A stretch of 64,000 bases of DNA from Stentor roeselii (Eukaryota; Ciliophora; Heterotrichea; Heterotrichida; Stentoridae): NCBI GenBank assembly GCA_006503475.1, contig RSEH01000114.1, positions 1 to 64,000 on the forward strand, written 5' to 3'. Shown piece by piece: positions 2,764-64,000 of the stretch. The notes beneath the pieces are model-generated. The model was given only the letters and a program-made list of their open reading frames with translations. It did not search any database and was not told the origin of the DNA. A program made the translations under genes and the position numbers. Numbering within the stretch: the stretch's first letter is position 1; the number at the start of each line of letters is the position of its first letter.

Positions 2764-4121
2764 AATCGAATTCCAATAAAATAAGATAGTTTATCACTCT
2801 ATACTTATACGAACTTAGTTCAATTCAATTTCCAATATTACTACCATCCTAAAGAAAACCATTTAATTATTTATAAAACTACTCTTCAAAGTAATTATCC
2901 TATTTACTCAGTCAGTTTTATTAATGATGTTTGATTTATCGCCAGTTCATCAAGTGATAATAGTATCATTATATTGAACTTTAATGAAAGAAGAAGAGAA
3001 TCACACTTAAAGGCCATACATTTACGCTAACTCTGTCATGTTCTCAAATGACGGAAAGTTACTCGCCAGTGGTGCAGGAGATAAAAGCATCAAGATATGG
3101 GATAGGAAAAACAGTGAAGAACTTTTTACTTTAAATGGACATTCAGGAGGAGTAAACTTTGTTTCCTTTTCTCCCTGTAACAGGTACCTCATAAGTGCAT
3201 CAGATGATAAAACTATTAAAATATGGAAATTGGATCAACAGAAAGAGGAAGTTGATATCACAGCCTATTCAGATAAAATCGTGCAATTTTCACCTGATGG
3301 GCAATTAACTGCTAGTGAATCAAAAGATTCCACTATTAAAATCTGGAAGATTCAAGATATTGGTGAAAAAGAGATAATTAATGGTCATTCATATTCTAAA
3401 AATGCATCAAAAGATAAGAATATACTGAAAGTTACTGATGGGAACGCAGAAATCTTGAATTTTATCATGATGAAAATTATCAGGCTAATGTTACTTGTGA
3501 TGGAAAAATCACAATTTGGGATTCAAGAGATGTGGAAAAAGTTAATTTTCAAACACCTTCGGATTCAATAAAAACTCTGACGATCTCATCAGATGGGAAC
3601 TACTTTGCCCTAACAACTTCAAATGTAATATTTTTAATTAAGAAATCGATTCCACAAGAAATTTTTAGAACTATAGAGGTTAATTATAAAATTTCTCATG
3701 TTCAGTTCTCAGTAGATACAGAATACTTGCTGATACTTACCCTTTGGGGATTTGAAGTATATAATATCCTTAATGACATGATTTTAGAGTCATTTTCCAT
3801 CATTGAATACAGAGATCTTGATTTAACTCTTGAAAATTTATCAAGAAATATTACTTTTAAACTAATAAAACCTTTAAAATTGAATCTAGTCTAAGTGAAC
3901 TTCTAGAATTCCAAGAAACTGAACAATATATAATTAAAATCTCAAAATATGATATTGGAACCAATAAAAATTACTTTTATCATCAAACAATTTATAACGA
4001 TGATGAGATATCTTATCGATATGTACGAAATTATATAAACCTTAGCCAACTAAGTGCGATTATTAAGCCTCAATATTATAAAGTCTTTGTATCTAGATAT
4101 TGTCATACACCTCTACATTTA
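2764..4121 (+). pseudogene. Broken WD40/ankyrin N-terminal region of a TRP-like channel gene
   Basis: Three successive frames carry WD40 blades and lead into the ion-channel frame that follows. From about 2790 to 3015 one frame reads coding sequence ending in a blade, with an in-frame TGA near 2931. A frame change near 3020 leads into blades at 3038-3400, including typical motifs such as DKSIKIWD and DDKTIKIW. A second change lies near 3430-3480 and a third near 3850-3890. None of these fits a 15- or 16-nt intron (each needs a shift of -1), so they look like small deletions. From 3861 the frame stays open into an ankyrin-like TPLHL motif and on into the channel. Reading: a host gene of the WD40-ankyrin-channel type whose N-terminal half has decayed. 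Sequencing error is the main alternative. Confidence 0.6.
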
Positions 4122-54809: not shown

Positions 54810-55514
54810 ATGTCCAATACAAACATGGGAGACTTAAAAATAAAACTTTCCCTGTCAACCCCAAAGCAAACCCCTTCGAGAAAGCCAGAAAAAAAACCAT
54901 CTGAAAAAGAAATAAACAAAGACCCGAAGAAGAAGCCCAAGCCAATCCTCGAGAAGCCGAAAGAGCCAATGCTTGACTTGATGAACCGAGCGAAACATTG
55001 GGAAAAAAGATGGGTTCTTTACCCGAATGTCTTAGACCATGGAGGCGAGATCTGGCTTCAGAAATGGGTCGCTTTAGACGAGATTGAAGAAGAAATGACT
55101 TTAGAAGAGGAAAAAATCACTCCAAAGATTTATAAGTGCAAAATTGAAGACTGTGGCAAAGAGTTCAACGATGCTGGGTCCTTGAAAAAACATGCAAGCA
55201 CTCATGGTGAGAAACAGTTTTTATGTAATTATGAAGGATGTGGAAAAAGGTTTTTAGATAACTCAAAACTCAGACGACATCAACTTGTTCACACTGGTGA
55301 AAGGCCTTATGAATGTCAGTATTGCGGGAAAAGGTTTAGCCTTGACTTTAACTTGAGAACGCATCTTAGGACTCACACTGGAGACAAGCCTTATCAATGT
55401 TCGTATCCCGGTTGTCTTAAACGATTCACACAGTCTAGCAACTTAGCCGCTCATGAAAAAAACCATATGATGAAGCAGGCTCCAAAGAAAGAAGAAGAAG
55501 AAGTAAAAATTTAG
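54810..55514 (+). CDS. C2H2 zinc-finger protein with four fingers (YY1-like)
   Basis: 234 residues. Residues 1-105 are basic, Pro/Lys-rich, with an acidic patch near 95. Four tandem C2H2 fingers occupy about 108-222. The first, second and fourth have C-x4-C spacing (CKIEDCGKEF, CNYEGCGKRF, CSYPGCLKRF) and the third C-x2-C. Linkers are TGERPYEC and TGDKPYQC. The arrangement resembles YY1/ZFP42 and TFIIIA-type fingers, so sequence-specific DNA or RNA binding is expected. The protein ends with a basic/acidic tail after H-x4-H. The ATG at 54810 is the first in frame. Confidence 0.9.
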   Translation: MSNTNMGDLKIKLSLSTPKQTPSRKPEKKPSEKEINKDPKKKPKPILEKPKEPMLDLMNRAKHWEKRWVLYPNVLDHGGEIWLQKWVALDEIEEEMTLEEEKITPKIYKCKIEDCGKEFNDAGSLKKHASTHGEKQFLCNYEGCGKRFLDNSKLRRHQLVHTGERPYECQYCGKRFSLDFNLRTHLRTHTGDKPYQCSYPGCLKRFTQSSNLAAHEKNHMMKQAPKKEEEEVKI

Positions 55515-55595: not shown

Positions 55596-56825
55596 CTAAA
55601 GTCTAAACCTTCTTTTAAAAACACCTAAATCGCCTCTCACATCCTCAATAGAAATCTTTACCCTTGCATTTAAAAGTTCAACAAGACAAGCTGTAATATT
55701 CCTAACATCGTCAATCCCACTATGATGCCTTCCAACATGTTCAATCTCCAACAACTTCAACATCTCCATCATCCCTCCTTTAAATCCAGGAACCAAGAAC
55801 TTAAAATTGACCCAATTGGCGAAATACTCAGGCAAGTCGATTTTCTTATAGCTGGCTTCACTAGCAAGACAAGTTTTCAAGTCCCAATCTCCACAAGTGG
55901 CAAAAATCCACTTCGCCTGGTCAAGTCGATTTTCCATCAAAAAACTTTGAAATTCATTTAAAACCTGCCGAATTCCGAGTTGTCCCGAGACCATTTCTTG
56001 CCGAATTCCAGTTAAACCTGTGCAAAACTGAGAAAGTTCAGGTACCACTTCAGGTTGTACGTATTTATGAAAAGAAAAATCGACATTCCTAGTCCTCAAG
56101 TTTAAAACCTGAACAGGAAACTCGATGATTTCTTGACAAGGAAGACTTCCATGTTCGACACAGTTCGCTTCGAAATCAAGAACCAGGAAATAATCAAAGT
56201 CAATCGGGGAGTAGCTCAAAGGATGTTCAACTCGCTGAATAAGGACTTTTGAGAAGTACTCCGGGGAGATAAAACCTTGAAAACCTGAGGAAAGGACCAC
56301 GCGGTTCTGAGAAATGAAGAATTTCATTCCGTCGTTTAAACATTTTTCAAGGTCGATGAAAATAAAGACCTCGCAATTGACCCTTGCCCCGCTGATGACT
56401 TCTTTGTTGCCTGGCAAGTTGACTGCGAAGTGGATGTGATTTCGATTCATTCGGTAAAGTCCTCGGTACTTTATTTTGTTCCAGCTTGATTTGTTGGTAC
56501 CGTGAAGAACTGTCGCGAATTCCCAGGGGTTTAATAAGGGAGTTAGTAGTTCTTCTTCTTTGACGTCGGGCACTGTATGGCCTTGGTTTGCACGAATCAT
56601 TAACTCTCCTTCGATTTCTTTTAAGTCGAATCTTTGCTTTTCACATGATTTTACGATTGTTTCTACTTGGTTCTGAGAAATTGATTTGAACTTTGGATGA
56701 GATAACAGATCGAAAAGCTTCACGTAACCTGCTGGGTTCATTGTTAAATGCAGGTCTTTGATACCGTGACGAAGGGCCCAGCTGAGCTTTTTAGAGTTTT
56801 TTGTCAGGTTCGTGGTTCTTTCCAT
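55596..56825 (-). CDS. Fusion of tRNA 2'-phosphotransferase (Tpt1/KptA) and ERI1-like exonuclease
   Basis: 409 residues from ATG 56825. Residues about 10-205 are a Tpt1/KptA domain: KLSWALRHG (catalytic Arg-His), LMIRANQGH (Arg), RMNRNHIHF (Arg-x-His) and GFISPEYFSKVL. These four residues match the Arg-His-Arg-Arg set that moves an internal RNA 2'-phosphate to NAD+. Residues about 208-409 are a DEDDh 3'-5' exonuclease of the ERI1/3'hExo type: LVLDFEANC (Asp, Glu), EIIEFPVQVLNLRT, FCTGLTGI, CGDWDLK (Asp) and GRHHSGIDDVRNI (His, Asp). All five DEDDh residues appear present. The ERI1 family usually has a SAP domain, absent here. One polypeptide thus couples 2'-phosphate removal and 3' trimming. 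Confidence 0.93.
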   Translation of the reverse strand: MERTTNLTKNSKKLSWALRHGIKDLHLTMNPAGYVKLFDLLSHPKFKSISQNQVETIVKSCEKQRFDLKEIEGELMIRANQGHTVPDVKEEELLTPLLNPWEFATVLHGTNKSSWNKIKYRGLYRMNRNHIHFAVNLPGNKEVISGARVNCEVFIFIDLEKCLNDGMKFFISQNRVVLSSGFQGFISPEYFSKVLIQRVEHPLSYSPIDFDYFLVLDFEANCVEHGSLPCQEIIEFPVQVLNLRTRNVDFSFHKYVQPEVVPELSQFCTGLTGIRQEMVSGQLGIRQVLNEFQSFLMENRLDQAKWIFATCGDWDLKTCLASEASYKKIDLPEYFANWVNFKFLVPGFKGGMMEMLKLLEIEHVGRHHSGIDDVRNITACLVELLNARVKISIEDVRGDLGVFKRRFRL

Positions 56826-56830
56826 TTCAG

Positions 56831-58045
56831 ATGAGATTATCCAGAACAAACATGGGAAAGATTAAAGATCTTGAATTATTTCATTTGGTTATAATGAATA
56901 TTTGTCAGTACTGCTACTTTAATTTTGATGGCAGGAAAAGAATCCCGCATCATTTGAAATGTGGACATCTCCTTTGCAAAGCTTGCATTAGCATGATGAA
57001 TAATAAGGAGATTCGAGCGTGCCCGTTTGATTTTAGACCCTTTGAATACCAAATTGTAGATAATTCTCTGACACAAACAAAGAAATTTATCTGCAAATTG
57101 CATAATTTCGCTATAGCCTACTTCTGTCAGAGTCATTATGAGTTACTCTGCAATGAATGCCATTCTTTTCACACAAGTTGCATTGTTATTAAAGTCTCGA
57201 CTGAAAAACAATTACATCAAATTTTGAAAACGAATATCAACAACTTTAAAACTACTAAAAGCAAATTTGTCAGCAATTCTTCTTTAAATCTCTTTGACTG
57301 CATTAAGAACTCTTTTGAACTCGCTGATTGTTTATTAAATAACCTGGATGATTGGTCTTCGGAGATTGAAACTCCTTTTTTTTCTAGAGATAATGAAAAA
57401 TGTAATGAAGTCCTTTCTAAATACGATTTTTTGAATCACTTCTTGATACAAACAATGAAAAATGAAAATGAAGTTCTGAGTGAATTGATAAGGACAGGTA
57501 ATTCTGAATCTACTGAACTTAATACCCAGTTTCACCCTGTTCTTGAGAAAAGTATTGAAGACTTGCCTGAAAATCCTCTGATCGCTCGAACGATTTCGAG
57601 AGAAAAAGGAATTGAAAAACTTTTTAATGAAGTTGACATCAATAAGGAATTTGAAAGGAATTATGAGTGCTTGGTGGTTAATGAGTCGAGTAATTTGATA
57701 AGAATTCAAGAAATAGGATTTGGAACACTTAGAGATACAGATGGTCAGGTACAGTACTCGCATTTTCAGATCAATTATATCATTATGAAATCAAGTCAAA
57801 ATGAACAGGTTATTGCCTCGAATTTGATAGTAGAAAATAAGGAAAAATCTATGATTTCCTTCAAAATTAGAGTACAGCCCCCATATGAACTTGGGCCTAA
57901 AATCTCTAATATTTTAAGTATTCAAACAACTGGCTTGAATAACTACGTATTTTTTTCTCAAGCATCGAGTAAAATCAAATTGAAGTTATCAGACTCAATT
58001 GATTATTTAGGGGATTTACCAATATTATACTTTAAAACAGCTTAA
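56831..58045 (+). CDS. RING and B-box zinc-finger protein (TRIM-like)
   Basis: The longest ATG frame starts at 56831 (404 residues); Met18 (56852) or Met32 (56894) are also possible, the last beginning just before the RING. The RING-like finger has CQYC, then CGHLLCKAC and CPFD. A B-box-like finger follows (CKLHNFAIAYFCQSH, then CNECHSFH), then a coiled region. The C-terminal half is unassigned. This resembles an animal TRIM protein without a known C-terminal domain, so E3 ligase activity is plausible. At 56831 the start codon is only 5 bp from the ATG of the divergent fusion gene. Confidence 0.75.
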   Translation: MRLSRTNMGKIKDLELFHLVIMNICQYCYFNFDGRKRIPHHLKCGHLLCKACISMMNNKEIRACPFDFRPFEYQIVDNSLTQTKKFICKLHNFAIAYFCQSHYELLCNECHSFHTSCIVIKVSTEKQLHQILKTNINNFKTTKSKFVSNSSLNLFDCIKNSFELADCLLNNLDDWSSEIETPFFSRDNEKCNEVLSKYDFLNHFLIQTMKNENEVLSELIRTGNSESTELNTQFHPVLEKSIEDLPENPLIARTISREKGIEKLFNEVDINKEFERNYECLVVNESSNLIRIQEIGFGTLRDTDGQVQYSHFQINYIIMKSSQNEQVIASNLIVENKEKSMISFKIRVQPPYELGPKISNILSIQTTGLNNYVFFSQASSKIKLKLSDSIDYLGDLPILYFKTA

Positions 58046-58152: not shown

Positions 58153-61100
58153 TTAACTCGAAGGATCAGTGATAACCGTCATTTCTCCATCAGCACAACA
58201 AGCCAACAAAAACCTCAAATCACTTGTAAGCATGAGGCTCAAAACAGGAGCAGCCGCTGTAAGCGCGATTCTTCTAACAAGTTCCAAAGTTCCTGCATGT
58301 CTAATAACAATATCTCCAGTATCAGTTCCATAAACCAAAAAATCTTTCCTCATCAAATCCTTGACAACCAGTGCAGAAGAGACCCATTTGAACTTATCCT
58401 GAACCCTACAAAGTTCAGCTCCATTGACAGAATAAGTGAAGACCATGCTTTGCCCTGCAGTAAAAAGAATGACTTTGGCAGGTTGGGCAGTGCTAAGTTT
58501 AACCATTGCACAAGGTGCAGCGAAAGGCAGATGAATGACTCTAACAAGTCTGCCTTTTCGAAGACTGTACAAGTTGCAAGTCCCATCAAGTGAGCAGCTT
58601 GCGAACAAGTGCAACTGAGAGCTGATAGTGACTGAAGTGACTTGGTCGTCATGGTCGATGAAGTTCCACCTTGGATGCAGGTGTTCTCCTTCGACCTGCC
58701 ACAAGAAGACGTCTCCATCTTTTCCTCCAGTGATTGCGTACTTTTCTGAATCATCTACTTCAACACAAGTAATCGTACTGTGATGGTTCCACCTGCAGAT
58801 ACTCTCTTCTTTCGAGTGAGTCTTTTTTATTCCCAGTCTTCCATCCCAGTACCCTCCTCGAATTATGACCTTGCCTTGCTGAATTATCTCAACTGGAGCG
58901 CAGAGACCCTCGACTGACCTGTCGAAGCACTCGATGACGTTTGACTTGTGCTCTGAAATCATCTGGATCTCGATGTTGCTCGCACAAGTGAAAGGCGTGC
59001 GTGAGTCACCCATCGGCTCAGACCACCAGCTGAACTTGACAATGTTCCCGTTGTTCCTTATCGCCACGATTTCTTTATCTTTAAACATCTTCGTCTTGAC
59101 TATCGCCCTTTCAGGTAATTCGTAAAAATTCTTGTAAGATGGAAGTCTCATTAAACTTTTACGATGCGCTGGAAGGTAAATTTTAAATTGTGCGTCTTTA
59201 TTCGTGATAAGAGAACCATTTAGCATTTTTGATAAAGGCTTTCGTGAAGGATGAGGTTTTGTGAACAGCTGTGAAGGAGTCTTTCCGAACTGCACGATTT
59301 GAGTTTCGATTCCTCGACGTAGGGCAGGATCTGAAGCTTTTTCCAAGTCGACAAGGTTTTCATATGTGAGGTAATAAAAGGAGTTGATGGAGGACTCAGC
59401 CTCTGCACCTTGTTGCTTGTAGCCAAAGATTAAATCGATCCATTTGTGCAACTGCTCCGAGACGAACTCACTTTCAAGAGCTTCTTTTTGGATGCGGATA
59501 AAGTCGTAGTGGTCTTTGCACCATCGAGGAAGTTCCACGTCATTCACCCGCTCGCCTTGTTGGGTCTTGCCGAAGTCCAGCTTGTCACGATTGACGAGAA
59601 ACTCAGGAAGGAAAAAGAACTCGGGGGTCAGTTCTCGTACATCTGAAATATCATCAGTGCATGAAGACCATGCTTCTTTCACACTTTTAAATAAACGGTC
59701 AGGTAAGTCGAACCTTCCACCCTGCAGTTCTTTTGCACCTTCTGAGTAAGGAAAAAGTCGAACTAAAAAGCTCAGGACTATCCCTGGGTTGCTGTAATGC
59801 GAGCCGAAGTGAAAAGGCGGTTCTGAAGTTTCATGTGAAAAAGTAGAAAATCGGTCTTTGAAGTACTTTGTTCTTTCAGCTGAACCTTGACATCCCATGT
59901 TTCTAGACAAGTCGCGGTAAGGTGAACGTGAGTTCAGGTCGATTGTTTCGGAGACGTAGTCGTTTAACACCCAGGGAAAAACAGGATATTGAGCAAGGTC
60001 GTGGAAGCTCCGGCCACTGACGAAGTTTAAAAACATGAGGTACTCGAAATTGCTGATTTGCCAATTAAGCCATTTTTCAGTGTAGCCACTTTCACTTAAT
60101 ATCTTGCCTGGGCTGTGAGCTTTGAAGTAAGAAAGTTTTCCGAATGATGAACTTCGGCATTTTTTTATGTTTGAGACGAATTGGTACCTGTCTGATGATG
60201 ACTGGAACTGAACCAGCACTGTTCGACCATCGTCGAAAAAGAACTCAGCTGCTGTATGTTGCATCACGAAAAGATGGGGAATTATGTTGACTAAACTTTC
60301 AAGCTTCCATTCTTTTACACCTGATTTTGTGATGCTTGGGATGTACTCGAATAACTCGGTTTTTGTCTCGAATTGGTCTTTTAATTGATCGTTTAGCTGG
60401 AATTTCAGTTTTTGGTCTTTTTTACTGGCGTATAGAGATAATGTGCCGTATTTTGTAGTTAAAGCTTGCATTATACCCACGGTTACCTGGATTAGTAAAG
60501 ACTCTTTTGGCTCGTTTAACTTTAGAGAGTTTCGGTTTGTTTCTTCGTCTAGGGTGTCCAGCTCTTCTTCTAGTTCTTTTGTTGGAGAGTTCTGGGCTAG
60601 GATTTCGGCCTTGAAGGATAATTGTGGGTTCACTCGGGTTGTGTGGCTTTTTAGGTATTCGTAGTTTTCTGAGGAGATTTTTAGAAGGGGGCGTGCTCCT
60701 TCGGAGTCGATTATTTGGAATGGCTCAAATTTGTGCTCTGTTGCTACATGCCAAACTCCTCTCCATTCTGAAAAAATCTTTTTCCTTTTAGTCCACATAT
60801 GACTCCTCTGTTTCCTCTGTTCATTCCTTTCACTTTCCCTATTTTTTTTCCTATTTTCCTCCTCAGACACCTTTTCATTACTTTTTTCCTGCAAGATATC
60901 CGCGATTTTCAAGTTAGTTTCTTCAAGATGCTTCCTCTGCTCATCTCTTTCTTTCACTAATTTTTCAGCAACTTTTTCCCTAGACTGTTGAATTGCCCTA
61001 GCTTTTGACTTGTTTTCGAACTGTCCCTGAACGGGTAAAAAGACGTCAAGAACATCAGCCTGCCATTGTTTATCAGTGACTTGATCATAAAGTGCCATGA

Positions 61101-64000
61101 AGCCGCTGTCCATTAAGTTTGCCAAGTTATTGAGTTCCATTTCTTCTCCAAGAGTTTCAGTCAGAGCCAAGACGACTTCTTCGCAGACGTTCATGCTTTG
61201 GAAAGGCTTTTTGATCATGTTTGAGATGATTCCTTGTGAATATCGACGACTTGAGTGCACGTATATGCTGAAGATGTACTTAAAGATACGCACTAAGGTC
61301 TCTTGAACATTACCTGACTCCTCGTAAACTAAGTTGATTAGGAAACCGACACTGTAGATCACGCAGGATGTGAAAACTTTTACGGATGAATTGCTTAGTT
61401 GCTTTTTACTTGATTCGGAAACGAGAAGGATGAATTTTATTAAACGCTCGATCACGGATAACCAGGGGGATATGTTTTTTGTTGTTTTTAAGGCGATGCA
61501 GGTTAGGTGGACCAAGGTCTTGATGAACCAGCCTCTCTGCTTGAGTTCTCCAGGAGGTTCAAAAATAAGGATCTGAATATCCGCCTTAAACCCTCCCTGA
61601 TCCTTGCTTTCAATACACCTGAGCAGCTGCAAATGTTCCTCATCGCCACGAGTGCCTTCAAAGAGAACCTCAGGCCAGATGGGGTCAAGAAGTTGAACAA
61701 AAGTGAGCAGCAATGACGATTCATCAGGGTTGATTGCGAAGTCATCACTATACAAAAGAAACTCTTCAATTAAAAAAGCAGTTGCGATAAGATTTTTCCA
61801 AAAAGTACTTTCCAAGCAAGGTCTACATCCCATGCTATTACTTTTGAGTATTTCACTAAGTTTTTCCAGTAAATTCTTGACAATACCTCTCGGTTTTTCC
61901 TCATTTTTCTTACTTTCAAGCCAATAAATAGTCCTTCTGAGGTACTTCCACCCGTCTTCATCATTTAAAATTGCTTGTTTCATGACAATAGTATGTAGTC
62001 TATGACCAATATCACTGATAACAACTGCAGTATCCTGTGATTCTCCAGTTTCCAGCAACAGATCAAGAAGCCAATAATGCCAGTCACTATTCTTCGAAAG
62101 AATCTTAGCATTTTCCGTATTCCACTTGGTCAACATCATCAAATCCTGCATGACTTTATGTTTCAAGTCGCTGCTAGCCCTCATGACCACATCTTGCAAA
62201 ATACTTAACCCAGCAGTGCTCTGTATAAAATCAGAGTCATCTAAAATATCAGCTCCTTCAATACTTCTCTTCAAAACCATTTCCAAAACCGCATGATAGA
62301 CCTTTTCCTCTTCCTTTTTCCTGGGAGAGGTGAAAAACGAGCTAGAACTCATATCTAGACTGACTTCTTCAATGATTTCCTGACATTTTACAGCGACGGT
62401 GTTAAAGTCCATCTTTCGATTCCCTCTACAGCTTTGAGGAGGAAAGTTTCCAACAGGTAAAAAAAAGTCTGAAGGCTTTTCAAGTTCTCCTCGCATGTAC
62501 TTGACGCAGTCCTTTGCAAGTTTCGCTACTTCTTTTATTAAGTTCTCGTCTTCTGTCTGTTCAGCGACGATTGACCCGTGCTCGCCGCCTGTCGGGTACT
62601 TGTTGTTGATGGCGTCTGTGTCGATGATGAGTCCTTCGGTGAACTTTGGAGGCTTTTTGCGAGTCTGGCTGAAGGACTTCACGTTTCTTTTCGGGTTTTG
62701 AAGGGTCAGGTTGAAGTCTTCTCGTTTTTCTTCTTCGCTTTCTCGGCTTCGCTCGGTTAGAGAGGCGAGACTTGGCTCGTCTTCTTCTTTGATCAGGTCG
62801 AAACTGAAGCCTTTTTTTGGCTTTTCTGTCACTTTTGTCTCGGTTTTTAACTCTAAAGCTTTTTTTACTAGCGTTGGACCGGATTTACCAGCATCTGGAA
62901 AACTGAAGGAAATCTTTTTCTTTGAGGATGGAGCTGGAGGAGGGTTGATTCCTAAGTCTTCTTTTGGACTTGGAAAACCGAATGAACGGGGAGGCTCTGG
63001 AACTTTTAGGGATGGGAATTTTTTGCTGAAATCTTCTTCTTCTTCTGGCTTGTCTCCGAAACTAGAACCCAGGGAGAGTTGAAGGGGTTTGAAACTTCCG
63101 CTTAGAAGTTTTGGGTTTTGGTTTGGAAGAATGACTGAACTGATATAATTGAAAATATCAGATTTGTTACTGAAAAGCGACATTTTCTCCGATGACGACA
63201 AAACAGAGTCGATCAAAGAAAGACACACACTCCTTATCTCAATATTTCCAGAGTTAAGCAAAACCAACAGCATTTCCAATCCACAAGCCTCCACAAAATA
63301 CTTCAAAAAAACCGAAGAAGGTGCTCCAACAATATCTCCAGGCCGATCATTAAGTACTTTTTTAAGAACCATTAACAAAGCAGCTTGAACAACATTAGAA
63401 GTCTTTCCAAATAGTGCTCCAACAACATGAACAACAGAATAAGCAATATTTTCCCCATTTCCAAGTAAAATAACTTCAACAATCGACACAATTTCTTTCA
63501 CATGAAGTTCATTTTCCGGGTAAAACTCAAGAAGAATCTCTAAAATCTTCTGAACCCCGACAGTTTTCGACACTTGCTTCGTAGCTTTCGTATAAAGAAC
63601 CTTAATAAACTTGTACAACTTGCTTTGAACTGCATCACTAGACTTACTCCAGAACTCAGGCAGCCAAAGAAGATGAAGAAGCAGCTGATCTCGAAGCTGG
63701 GGCATGATAAAGTTGTTCAGGTCTTCAATTAAGTCAATTATTGGCTCTTTTAAACCTGCAGGTGTTATTTTTGATAGGATTTCTGCTAGGGCTTTGAAAA
63801 ATTTCATCTTGCATGCCTCGATTTGGTTTTCTGGACGGTCTTTCAGGCATAGGACTAGAAGACGGAACCACTCTAAGGTTAGTTCGTGGAAAAATTCTGG
63901 AAATTCTGAGATCTTTTCGACGATTGGTAAAAATGCGCAGATTCCTCCTAGGTAGGACATTCGTAGGTTTCCCATGTGCTTGAAACCGCTTAGGCCTAGA
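58153..64000 (-). CDS. BEACH-WD40 protein, neurobeachin/LRBA-like (partial, N-terminus off the window)
   Basis: The frame is open to the right edge, so the true start lies outside; at least 1,948 residues are in the window. Residues about 1-1000 are helical armadillo-like with low-complexity Ser/Pro/Lys stretches around 320-430. A charged coiled coil lies near 1000-1060. A PH-BEACH module is at about 1061-1230 (KIFSEWRGVWH, LLKISSENYEYL). The BEACH domain is at about 1288-1578 (YTEKWLNWQISNFEYLMFLN, YPVFPWVLNDY, HYSNPGIVLSFLVR, ELTPEFFFLPEF). C-terminal WD40 blades run about 1625-1940. The family controls vesicle traffic and lysosome-related organelles. A single open frame of about 5.8 kb without introns is notable. 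Confidence 0.95.
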   Translation of the reverse strand, partial: LGLSGFKHMGNLRMSYLGGICAFLPIVEKISEFPEFFHELTLEWFRLLVLCLKDRPENQIEACKMKFFKALAEILSKITPAGLKEPIIDLIEDLNNFIMPQLRDQLLLHLLWLPEFWSKSSDAVQSKLYKFIKVLYTKATKQVSKTVGVQKILEILLEFYPENELHVKEIVSIVEVILLGNGENIAYSVVHVVGALFGKTSNVVQAALLMVLKKVLNDRPGDIVGAPSSVFLKYFVEACGLEMLLVLLNSGNIEIRSVCLSLIDSVLSSSEKMSLFSNKSDIFNYISSVILPNQNPKLLSGSFKPLQLSLGSSFGDKPEEEEDFSKKFPSLKVPEPPRSFGFPSPKEDLGINPPPAPSSKKKISFSFPDAGKSGPTLVKKALELKTETKVTEKPKKGFSFDLIKEEDEPSLASLTERSRESEEEKREDFNLTLQNPKRNVKSFSQTRKKPPKFTEGLIIDTDAINNKYPTGGEHGSIVAEQTEDENLIKEVAKLAKDCVKYMRGELEKPSDFFLPVGNFPPQSCRGNRKMDFNTVAVKCQEIIEEVSLDMSSSSFFTSPRKKEEEKVYHAVLEMVLKRSIEGADILDDSDFIQSTAGLSILQDVVMRASSDLKHKVMQDLMMLTKWNTENAKILSKNSDWHYWLLDLLLETGESQDTAVVISDIGHRLHTIVMKQAILNDEDGWKYLRRTIYWLESKKNEEKPRGIVKNLLEKLSEILKSNSMGCRPCLESTFWKNLIATAFLIEEFLLYSDDFAINPDESSLLLTFVQLLDPIWPEVLFEGTRGDEEHLQLLRCIESKDQGGFKADIQILIFEPPGELKQRGWFIKTLVHLTCIALKTTKNISPWLSVIERLIKFILLVSESSKKQLSNSSVKVFTSCVIYSVGFLINLVYEESGNVQETLVRIFKYIFSIYVHSSRRYSQGIISNMIKKPFQSMNVCEEVVLALTETLGEEMELNNLANLMDSGFMALYDQVTDKQWQADVLDVFLPVQGQFENKSKARAIQQSREKVAEKLVKERDEQRKHLEETNLKIADILQEKSNEKVSEEENRKKNRESERNEQRKQRSHMWTKRKKIFSEWRGVWHVATEHKFEPFQIIDSEGARPLLKISSENYEYLKSHTTRVNPQLSFKAEILAQNSPTKELEEELDTLDEETNRNSLKLNEPKESLLIQVTVGIMQALTTKYGTLSLYASKKDQKLKFQLNDQLKDQFETKTELFEYIPSITKSGVKEWKLESLVNIIPHLFVMQHTAAEFFFDDGRTVLVQFQSSSDRYQFVSNIKKCRSSSFGKLSYFKAHSPGKILSESGYTEKWLNWQISNFEYLMFLNFVSGRSFHDLAQYPVFPWVLNDYVSETIDLNSRSPYRDLSRNMGCQGSAERTKYFKDRFSTFSHETSEPPFHFGSHYSNPGIVLSFLVRLFPYSEGAKELQGGRFDLPDRLFKSVKEAWSSCTDDISDVRELTPEFFFLPEFLVNRDKLDFGKTQQGERVNDVELPRWCKDHYDFIRIQKEALESEFVSEQLHKWIDLIFGYKQQGAEAESSINSFYYLTYENLVDLEKASDPALRRGIETQIVQFGKTPSQLFTKPHPSRKPLSKMLNGSLITNKDAQFKIYLPAHRKSLMRLPSYKNFYELPERAIVKTKMFKDKEIVAIRNNGNIVKFSWWSEPMGDSRTPFTCASNIEIQMISEHKSNVIECFDRSVEGLCAPVEIIQQGKVIIRGGYWDGRLGIKKTHSKEESICRWNHHSTITCVEVDDSEKYAITGGKDGDVFLWQVEGEHLHPRWNFIDHDDQVTSVTISSQLHLFASCSLDGTCNLYSLRKGRLVRVIHLPFAAPCAMVKLSTAQPAKVILFTAGQSMVFTYSVNGAELCRVQDKFKWVSSALVVKDLMRKDFLVYGTDTGDIVIRHAGTLELVRRIALTAAAPVLSLMLTSDLRFLLACCADGEMTVITDPSS

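Follow-up and report, generated by a model that had tools for sequence, protein, structure and literature searches.

The window, by which we mean the whole 64,000-nt stretch of Stentor roeselii DNA analyzed here, encodes on its minus strand a protein of 409 residues (P0001) in a reading frame without an in-frame stop. Two enzyme domains follow one another in this chain, and their coordinates are collected in Table 1. The N-terminal domain covers positions 4-177 of the 177 in the Pfam profile of Tpt1/KptA RNA 2'-phosphotransferases (PF01885), with a score of 186.2 bits against a cut-off of 26, and the C-terminal domain covers positions 1-162 of 164 in the exonuclease profile PF00929 (RNase_T). 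That both matches lie in one frame is far beyond chance. Sequence searches against solved structures paired the N-terminal half with mouse TRPT1 (7yw2, residues 9-204) and human TRPT1 (E 2.2e-36), and the C-terminal half with ERI3 (7k05, residues 202-381), followed by ERI1 chains (E 2.3e-27 to 2.5e-26) and ERI2 (E 3.2e-24). Because the TRPT1 match ends at residue 204 and the ERI3 match starts at residue 202, the domains appear to be joined without a linker. The sequence-only reading had proposed a Tpt1 enzyme and a nuclease in one frame, which is what a single open reading frame with two complete domains bears out. It had called the nuclease ERI1/3'hExo: the assignment to the DEDDh exonucleases stands, and the ERI1 type gives way, since by these scores the nuclease half is closest to ERI3 (8.7e-46, versus 2.3e-27 for ERI1).

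Table 1. Features of the fusion locus and of related loci discussed in the text.
Feature	Position	Strand	Remarks
Tpt1-ERI3-like fusion protein (P0001), 409 aa	55596..56825	-	ATG at 56825, stop TAG
Tpt1/KptA RNA 2'-phosphotransferase domain, residues 8-181	56283..56804	-	PF01885 7.3e-55; TRPT1 structure 7yw2 8.9e-42
Tpt1 tetrad Arg19-His20	56766..56771	-	Identical in 120/120 compared Tpt1 loci
Tpt1 tetrad Arg78 (IRANQGH)	56592..56594	-	Arg in 120/120 loci, many pattern-picked on this Arg
HGT motif 108-110, NAD+ adenosine contact	56496..56504	-	HGT in 119/120 loci, HGA in L203
Tpt1 tetrad Arg128 (MNRNHIH)	56442..56444	-	Arg in 119/120 loci, His in L139
Domain junction, residues 186-216	56178..56270	-	19/31 (61%) identical to C89 copy
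ERI3-like DEDDh 3'-5' exonuclease domain, residues 214-379	55689..56186	-	PF00929 2.9e-22; ERI3 7k05 8.7e-46
Exonuclease motif I, Asp217-x-Glu219	56169..56177	-	Residue alignment
Exonuclease Asp315 (CGDWD)	55881..55883	-	Residue alignment
Exonuclease His368 ... Asp373 (HSGIDD)	55707..55724	-	Residue alignment
Intron-bearing tRNA-Tyr-like genes	Contigs C131, C142, C421 (L043-L045)		10-nt anticodon-loop intron each
Viral contig IMGVR_UViG_3300009504_000946 (L203 = L082)	Tpt1 gene L203:2480-3025; ERI-like DEDDh nuclease 3179-3937	same strand	

The fusion gene is open under the standard genetic code, which Stentor coeruleus uses (PMC9505925, in part). UGA is read as Trp in Blepharisma stoltei (PMC9942806, in part); a code of this type is disfavoured here by a 1948-codon standard-code reading frame in the window. 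S. coeruleus has introns of 15-16 nt, and in those of 15 nt the branch-point A is mostly at position 10 (PMC9505925, in part). Candidate introns joining two open frames in the window numbered six at 15 nt, four at 13, five at 24 and five at 27; with counts so alike at other lengths, a length of 15 nt is not telling by itself, and the weight falls on the GTAA start and the A at position 10 that five of the six 15-nt candidates share, the sixth being unlike them. This pattern, matching that of S. coeruleus, points to a Stentor-like heterotrich ciliate. Within the fusion frame, a 16-nt GTA...AG stretch at codon 109 was rejected as an intron, its removal breaking the frame.

A divergent reading frame (window 56831-58045), with RING-type and B-box matches below the Pfam cut-offs, has an ATG only 5 nt away from that of the fusion gene, which may leave the two genes with very little upstream sequence in common. 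Farther along, at window 58153-63975, lies a 1940-residue reading frame that appears to encode a BEACH-WD40 protein.

Both active sites were compared residue by residue with related loci. Tpt1 is defined by an Arg-His-Arg-Arg tetrad (PMC6333775, in part), and P0001 has it complete as R19, H20, R78 and R128, with Arg128 equated with Arg121 of CthTpt1; the catalytic set ascribed to the domain from its sequence alone is thus present. H132 and R148 are likewise identical in all 120 bacterial and viral Tpt1 loci compared (80 from genomes, 40 viral), and every Tpt1 residue tested is retained in the window copy. These loci were partly picked by patterns containing RANQGH or SK.LS, so the conservation figure for R78 is biased; Arg19, His132 and Arg148 lie outside the patterns. 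In the nuclease half, D217, E219, D315, H368 and D373 were all found, as had been claimed for the DEDDh set. D315, H368 and D373 are invariant in 38 of 38 viral ERI-like loci, and D217 and E219 are kept in 37 of them, with one gap, the figure for motif I being biased by pattern-based selection of loci.

Among known enzymes, the fusion shares with TRPT1/Tpt1/KptA (7yw2, 7yw3, 6e3a, 7kw8) the complete domain, the tetrad, HGT and the near-full profile. The solved chains of that family are 177-253 residues long and consist of Tpt1 alone, whereas here a nuclease directly follows, and a second copy in the same genome has an altered RNA lobe. The nuclease half resembles ERI3 (ERI1 exoribonuclease 3; 7k05, 2xri) in all DEDDh residues but is fused behind Tpt1, and the second copy has Asp in place of the motif I Glu. 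ERI1/3'hExo (1zbu, 1w0h) belongs to the same DEDDh family and is more distant than ERI3 (E about 3e-27). ERI1/3'hExo proper carries an N-terminal SAP domain that binds an RNA stem-loop; in the fusion protein no SAP match was found in Pfam at E up to 0.1, and the N-terminal half is Tpt1. The nearest architectural parallel in the literature searched is a KptA-Nudix fusion in Bodo saltans virus, whose Nudix domain is thought to process the ADP-ribose product (PMC9503650, in part); KptA is fused there to an enzyme too, yet the partner is Nudix and not an RNA exonuclease.

The predicted structure of the whole protein, built from an alignment with 30 of the 120 Tpt1 loci and 2 of the 38 nuclease loci, has a mean pLDDT of 75, parts of the nuclease half being weakly predicted, and a pTM of 0.51, so the domain arrangement was not read from the model and only fold matches were used. 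In the fold comparison, the modelled halves match TRPT1 and ERI3 structures (42% identity over 195 columns for ERI3), and none of the 50 fold matches listed is a structure with both domains.

The genome offers a plausible client for the Tpt1 half. A tRNA-Tyr pattern allowing up to three mismatches gave 18 matches, versus 3 for a control pattern. Three of the 18 are perfect, and in each of these ARAGORN finds the anticodon loop enlarged by a 10-nt insertion, typing two as Tyr and one as Asn. Among the 30 of 63 scored tRNA matches that were typed, none is Tyr, which covers intronless tRNA-Tyr in part. The splicing endonuclease profile PF01974 has two matches in the assembly. RtcB-type ligation leaves no 2'-phosphate, and RtcB gave no match in the assembly, with 9 of 14 control genomes positive, an absence that is provisional. 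The fungal-type ligase profiles PF09511, PF08302 and PF08303 gave none either, with no control genome positive, and PF09414 gave none with 5 of 14 positive. From tRNA-Tyr introns, endonuclease matches and the lack of an RtcB match, the window protein is probably the genome's tRNA-splicing 2'-phosphotransferase, and a splicing route that forms a 2'-phosphate is likely present, although none of the ligase profiles searched gave a match. The same three observations make this ciliate a place to seek a tRNA ligase. Should ligation instead be of a 3'-5' type that was missed, the Tpt1 half would have to act on something else.

Tpt1 and ERI-type genes appear to be few in this genome. In the assembly that contains the window (522 contigs, 44.4 Mb in all), PF01885 matches two places only, the window and contig C89. 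The whole of P0001 as query returned the same two, the sequence being sensitive enough to find ERI1 (2.3e-27) and mouse TRPT1 (8.9e-42). PF00929 matches six places: the two fusions and four others carrying WIDLELTG, ALDCEM, SIDCEM and GIDCEM, presumably motifs of the oligoribonuclease, REXO4/ISG20 and REX1 types. A further Tpt1 or ERI-type gene gave no match in the 44-Mb assembly, an absence that is likewise provisional.

The gene on contig C89 encodes 408 residues, again with both halves in one frame, and is 40% identical overall to the window copy. Its PF01885 match is confined to profile positions 90-177 (43.1 bits); nothing else in the assembly but the window copy matches the full profile. 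In the C89 copy Ile replaces R19 and, varying with how the sequences are aligned, Lys or Thr replaces R78, so that the Tpt1 tetrad is broken; Phe stands in place of H130 and H132, and Lys in place of R148. H20, HGT and R128 are retained. Since the KptA of Bacillus phage G has Lys at the Arg78 position in a small alignment, the loss of Arg78 is weaker evidence than the losses of Arg19 and His132. The C89 copy has probably lost 2'-phosphotransferase activity. Its nuclease motif I has Asp (codon GAT) for the Glu found in 37 of 38 viral relatives, the remaining one having a gap.

Our preferred reading, to which we give a rough probability of 0.45, is a bifunctional enzyme of stable-RNA maturation, with a Tpt1 half for tRNA splicing and an ERI3-like half that trims 3' tails. 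The N-terminal half would be the cell's working Tpt1, removing in an NAD+-dependent reaction the 2'-phosphate left at ligated tRNA exon junctions, with tRNA-Tyr at least among its clients. The C-terminal DEDDh nuclease would trim short 3' tails from stable RNAs, precursors of tRNA or rRNA for instance, a role suggested by its family: in maturation of the 5.8S rRNA precursor, the final 3' nucleotides are likely taken off by ERI1 (PMC6315592, in part). One polypeptide would thereby hold two housekeeping clean-up activities near shared clients, with no need for the two to work in turn on a single molecule; the C89 copy, with its altered Tpt1 residues and retained nuclease domain, argues that no strict sequence is needed. 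Both activities, the RNAs they act on and whatever advantage the fusion brings are inferred. If the cell has no Tpt1 and no ERI-family gene besides this pair, as the search results indicate, the clean-up of tRNA splicing and 3'-end trimming are physically joined, which would give a handle on the RNAs that ERI3-type nucleases act on and on the role of Tpt1 outside fungi.

The fused arrangement was sought elsewhere. With the whole protein as query, no relatives were found in the viral and genome contig collections, and although 94 phage and 64 plasmid records gave matches, not one of these reaches 80% coverage of the query; among the 20 matches listed, each falls within one half, except one that begins at the end of Tpt1 and continues across the nuclease. 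Open reading frames with both domains are absent from the 120 Tpt1 loci and 38 viral nuclease loci, taken with flanks of up to 2.5 or 3 kb. Ten of 29 bacterial genomes have both kinds of match, and in none does a match span both. In a Chloroflexaceae genome the two lie 2.7 kb apart on one contig, with long opposite-strand reading frames between them, and this case was set aside. Among the papers listed, literature searches found no description of a Tpt1/TRPT1/KptA fusion with an ERI-type or other exonuclease, and the parts available of PMC9503650, PMC6333775 and PMC9458441 contain none. The statement that no such fusion has been described therefore holds for the literature, phages, plasmids and bacterial loci searched. 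Both parts belong to known families and their combination is apparently new, eukaryote proteomes lying outside the comparison; public ciliate genomes may already contain it, so far unnoticed.

A different use of the same pairing is possible, with the odds against it: the Tpt1 half might remove a 2'-phosphate that hinders the nuclease, which would then digest the RNA, the targets being mis-spliced tRNA or RNA ends with 2'-phosphates in decay or quality control. Such coupling would suit two domains that abut within one chain. When position 47 of a tRNA carries a 2'-phosphate, the RNA resists nuclease, as probed with RNase I, and KptA/Tpt1 erases the mark (PMC9095486, in part), yet the nuclease used in that study is an endonuclease and not an ERI-type exonuclease. 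A subset of Tpt1 enzymes reportedly removes terminal 2' and 3' phosphates from RNA, as the title of Munir 2019 has it, and this too would favour the clearing of ends. Genomic association points the same way in a single case, the viral contig of Table 1 with its neighbouring Tpt1 and nuclease genes, but no Tpt1 locus of the 120 is fused and one near adjacency may arise by chance. Against obligate coupling, the C89 copy keeps its nuclease domain despite the altered tetrad. In that viral contig the two genes are 153 nt apart, and the Tpt1 carries HGA rather than HGT.

The uneven divergence of the two ciliate copies bears on the remaining readings. Identity between them is 22% (18/82) in the RNA lobe, 40% (36/89) in the NAD lobe and 46% (85/184) in the exonuclease, and the junction is the best conserved region of all. 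As the C89 copy is fused too and the boundary is where the copies are most alike, the fusion appears to predate the duplication. An RNA lobe so diverged, with R19, R78, H132 and R148 replaced and the rest of the fusion kept, is what one would expect if the Tpt1 half were mainly an RNA-binding or scaffold module, its catalysis secondary and the copies nucleases of different specificity. We consider this unlikely, given that the window copy has every tested Tpt1 residue and matches the entire profile. Still less probable is a ligand-sensing role for the C89 copy after duplication, in which bound NAD+ or ADP-ribose would gate or position the ERI nuclease. It would account for residue losses in the RNA lobe together with an NAD lobe that keeps HGT and the fourth tetrad Arg, with Lys replacing the Arg equated with the NAD-caging Arg139 of CthTpt1. 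If true, it would be a new tie between RNA turnover and the NAD+ state.

That the locus encodes two separate proteins, or reflects an error of gene model or assembly, is very improbable. The frame runs open through the junction in both copies, which lie on separate contigs, and no start codon lies between the domains: methionines stand at positions 1, 29, 76, 126, 167, 278 and on in the window copy, leaving none between 167 and 278, and at 1, 13, 122 and 339 in the C89 copy, so that neither copy has a start for a separate nuclease including its first catalytic Asp, unless inside Tpt1. With a second fused copy and a conserved junction besides, transcripts of two proteins, which the sequence-only reading had named as its possible refutation, have become unlikely, and on these comparisons the pairing of Tpt1 and nuclease is real and kept. 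Acquisition of the ready-made fusion from a bacterium or virus, in which both domain families do occur (bacteria, and phages or viral contigs), is hardly credible, since in the PDB each half finds its top match in an animal enzyme (TRPT1 or ERI3) and neither the phage and plasmid records, the 29 bacterial genomes nor the 120 Tpt1 loci yielded it.

Two minor observations concern relatives and neighbours. The viral IMG/VR contigs L061 and L062 encode ERI3-like nucleases that share 42-44% identity with the nuclease half of the ciliate protein, which places them nearer to it than the remaining viral relatives found. Both fusion loci adjoin a C2H2 zinc-finger reading frame (window 54810-55514; L002:275-685, identified by eye); the orientation differs between the two, and the association may be due to chance.
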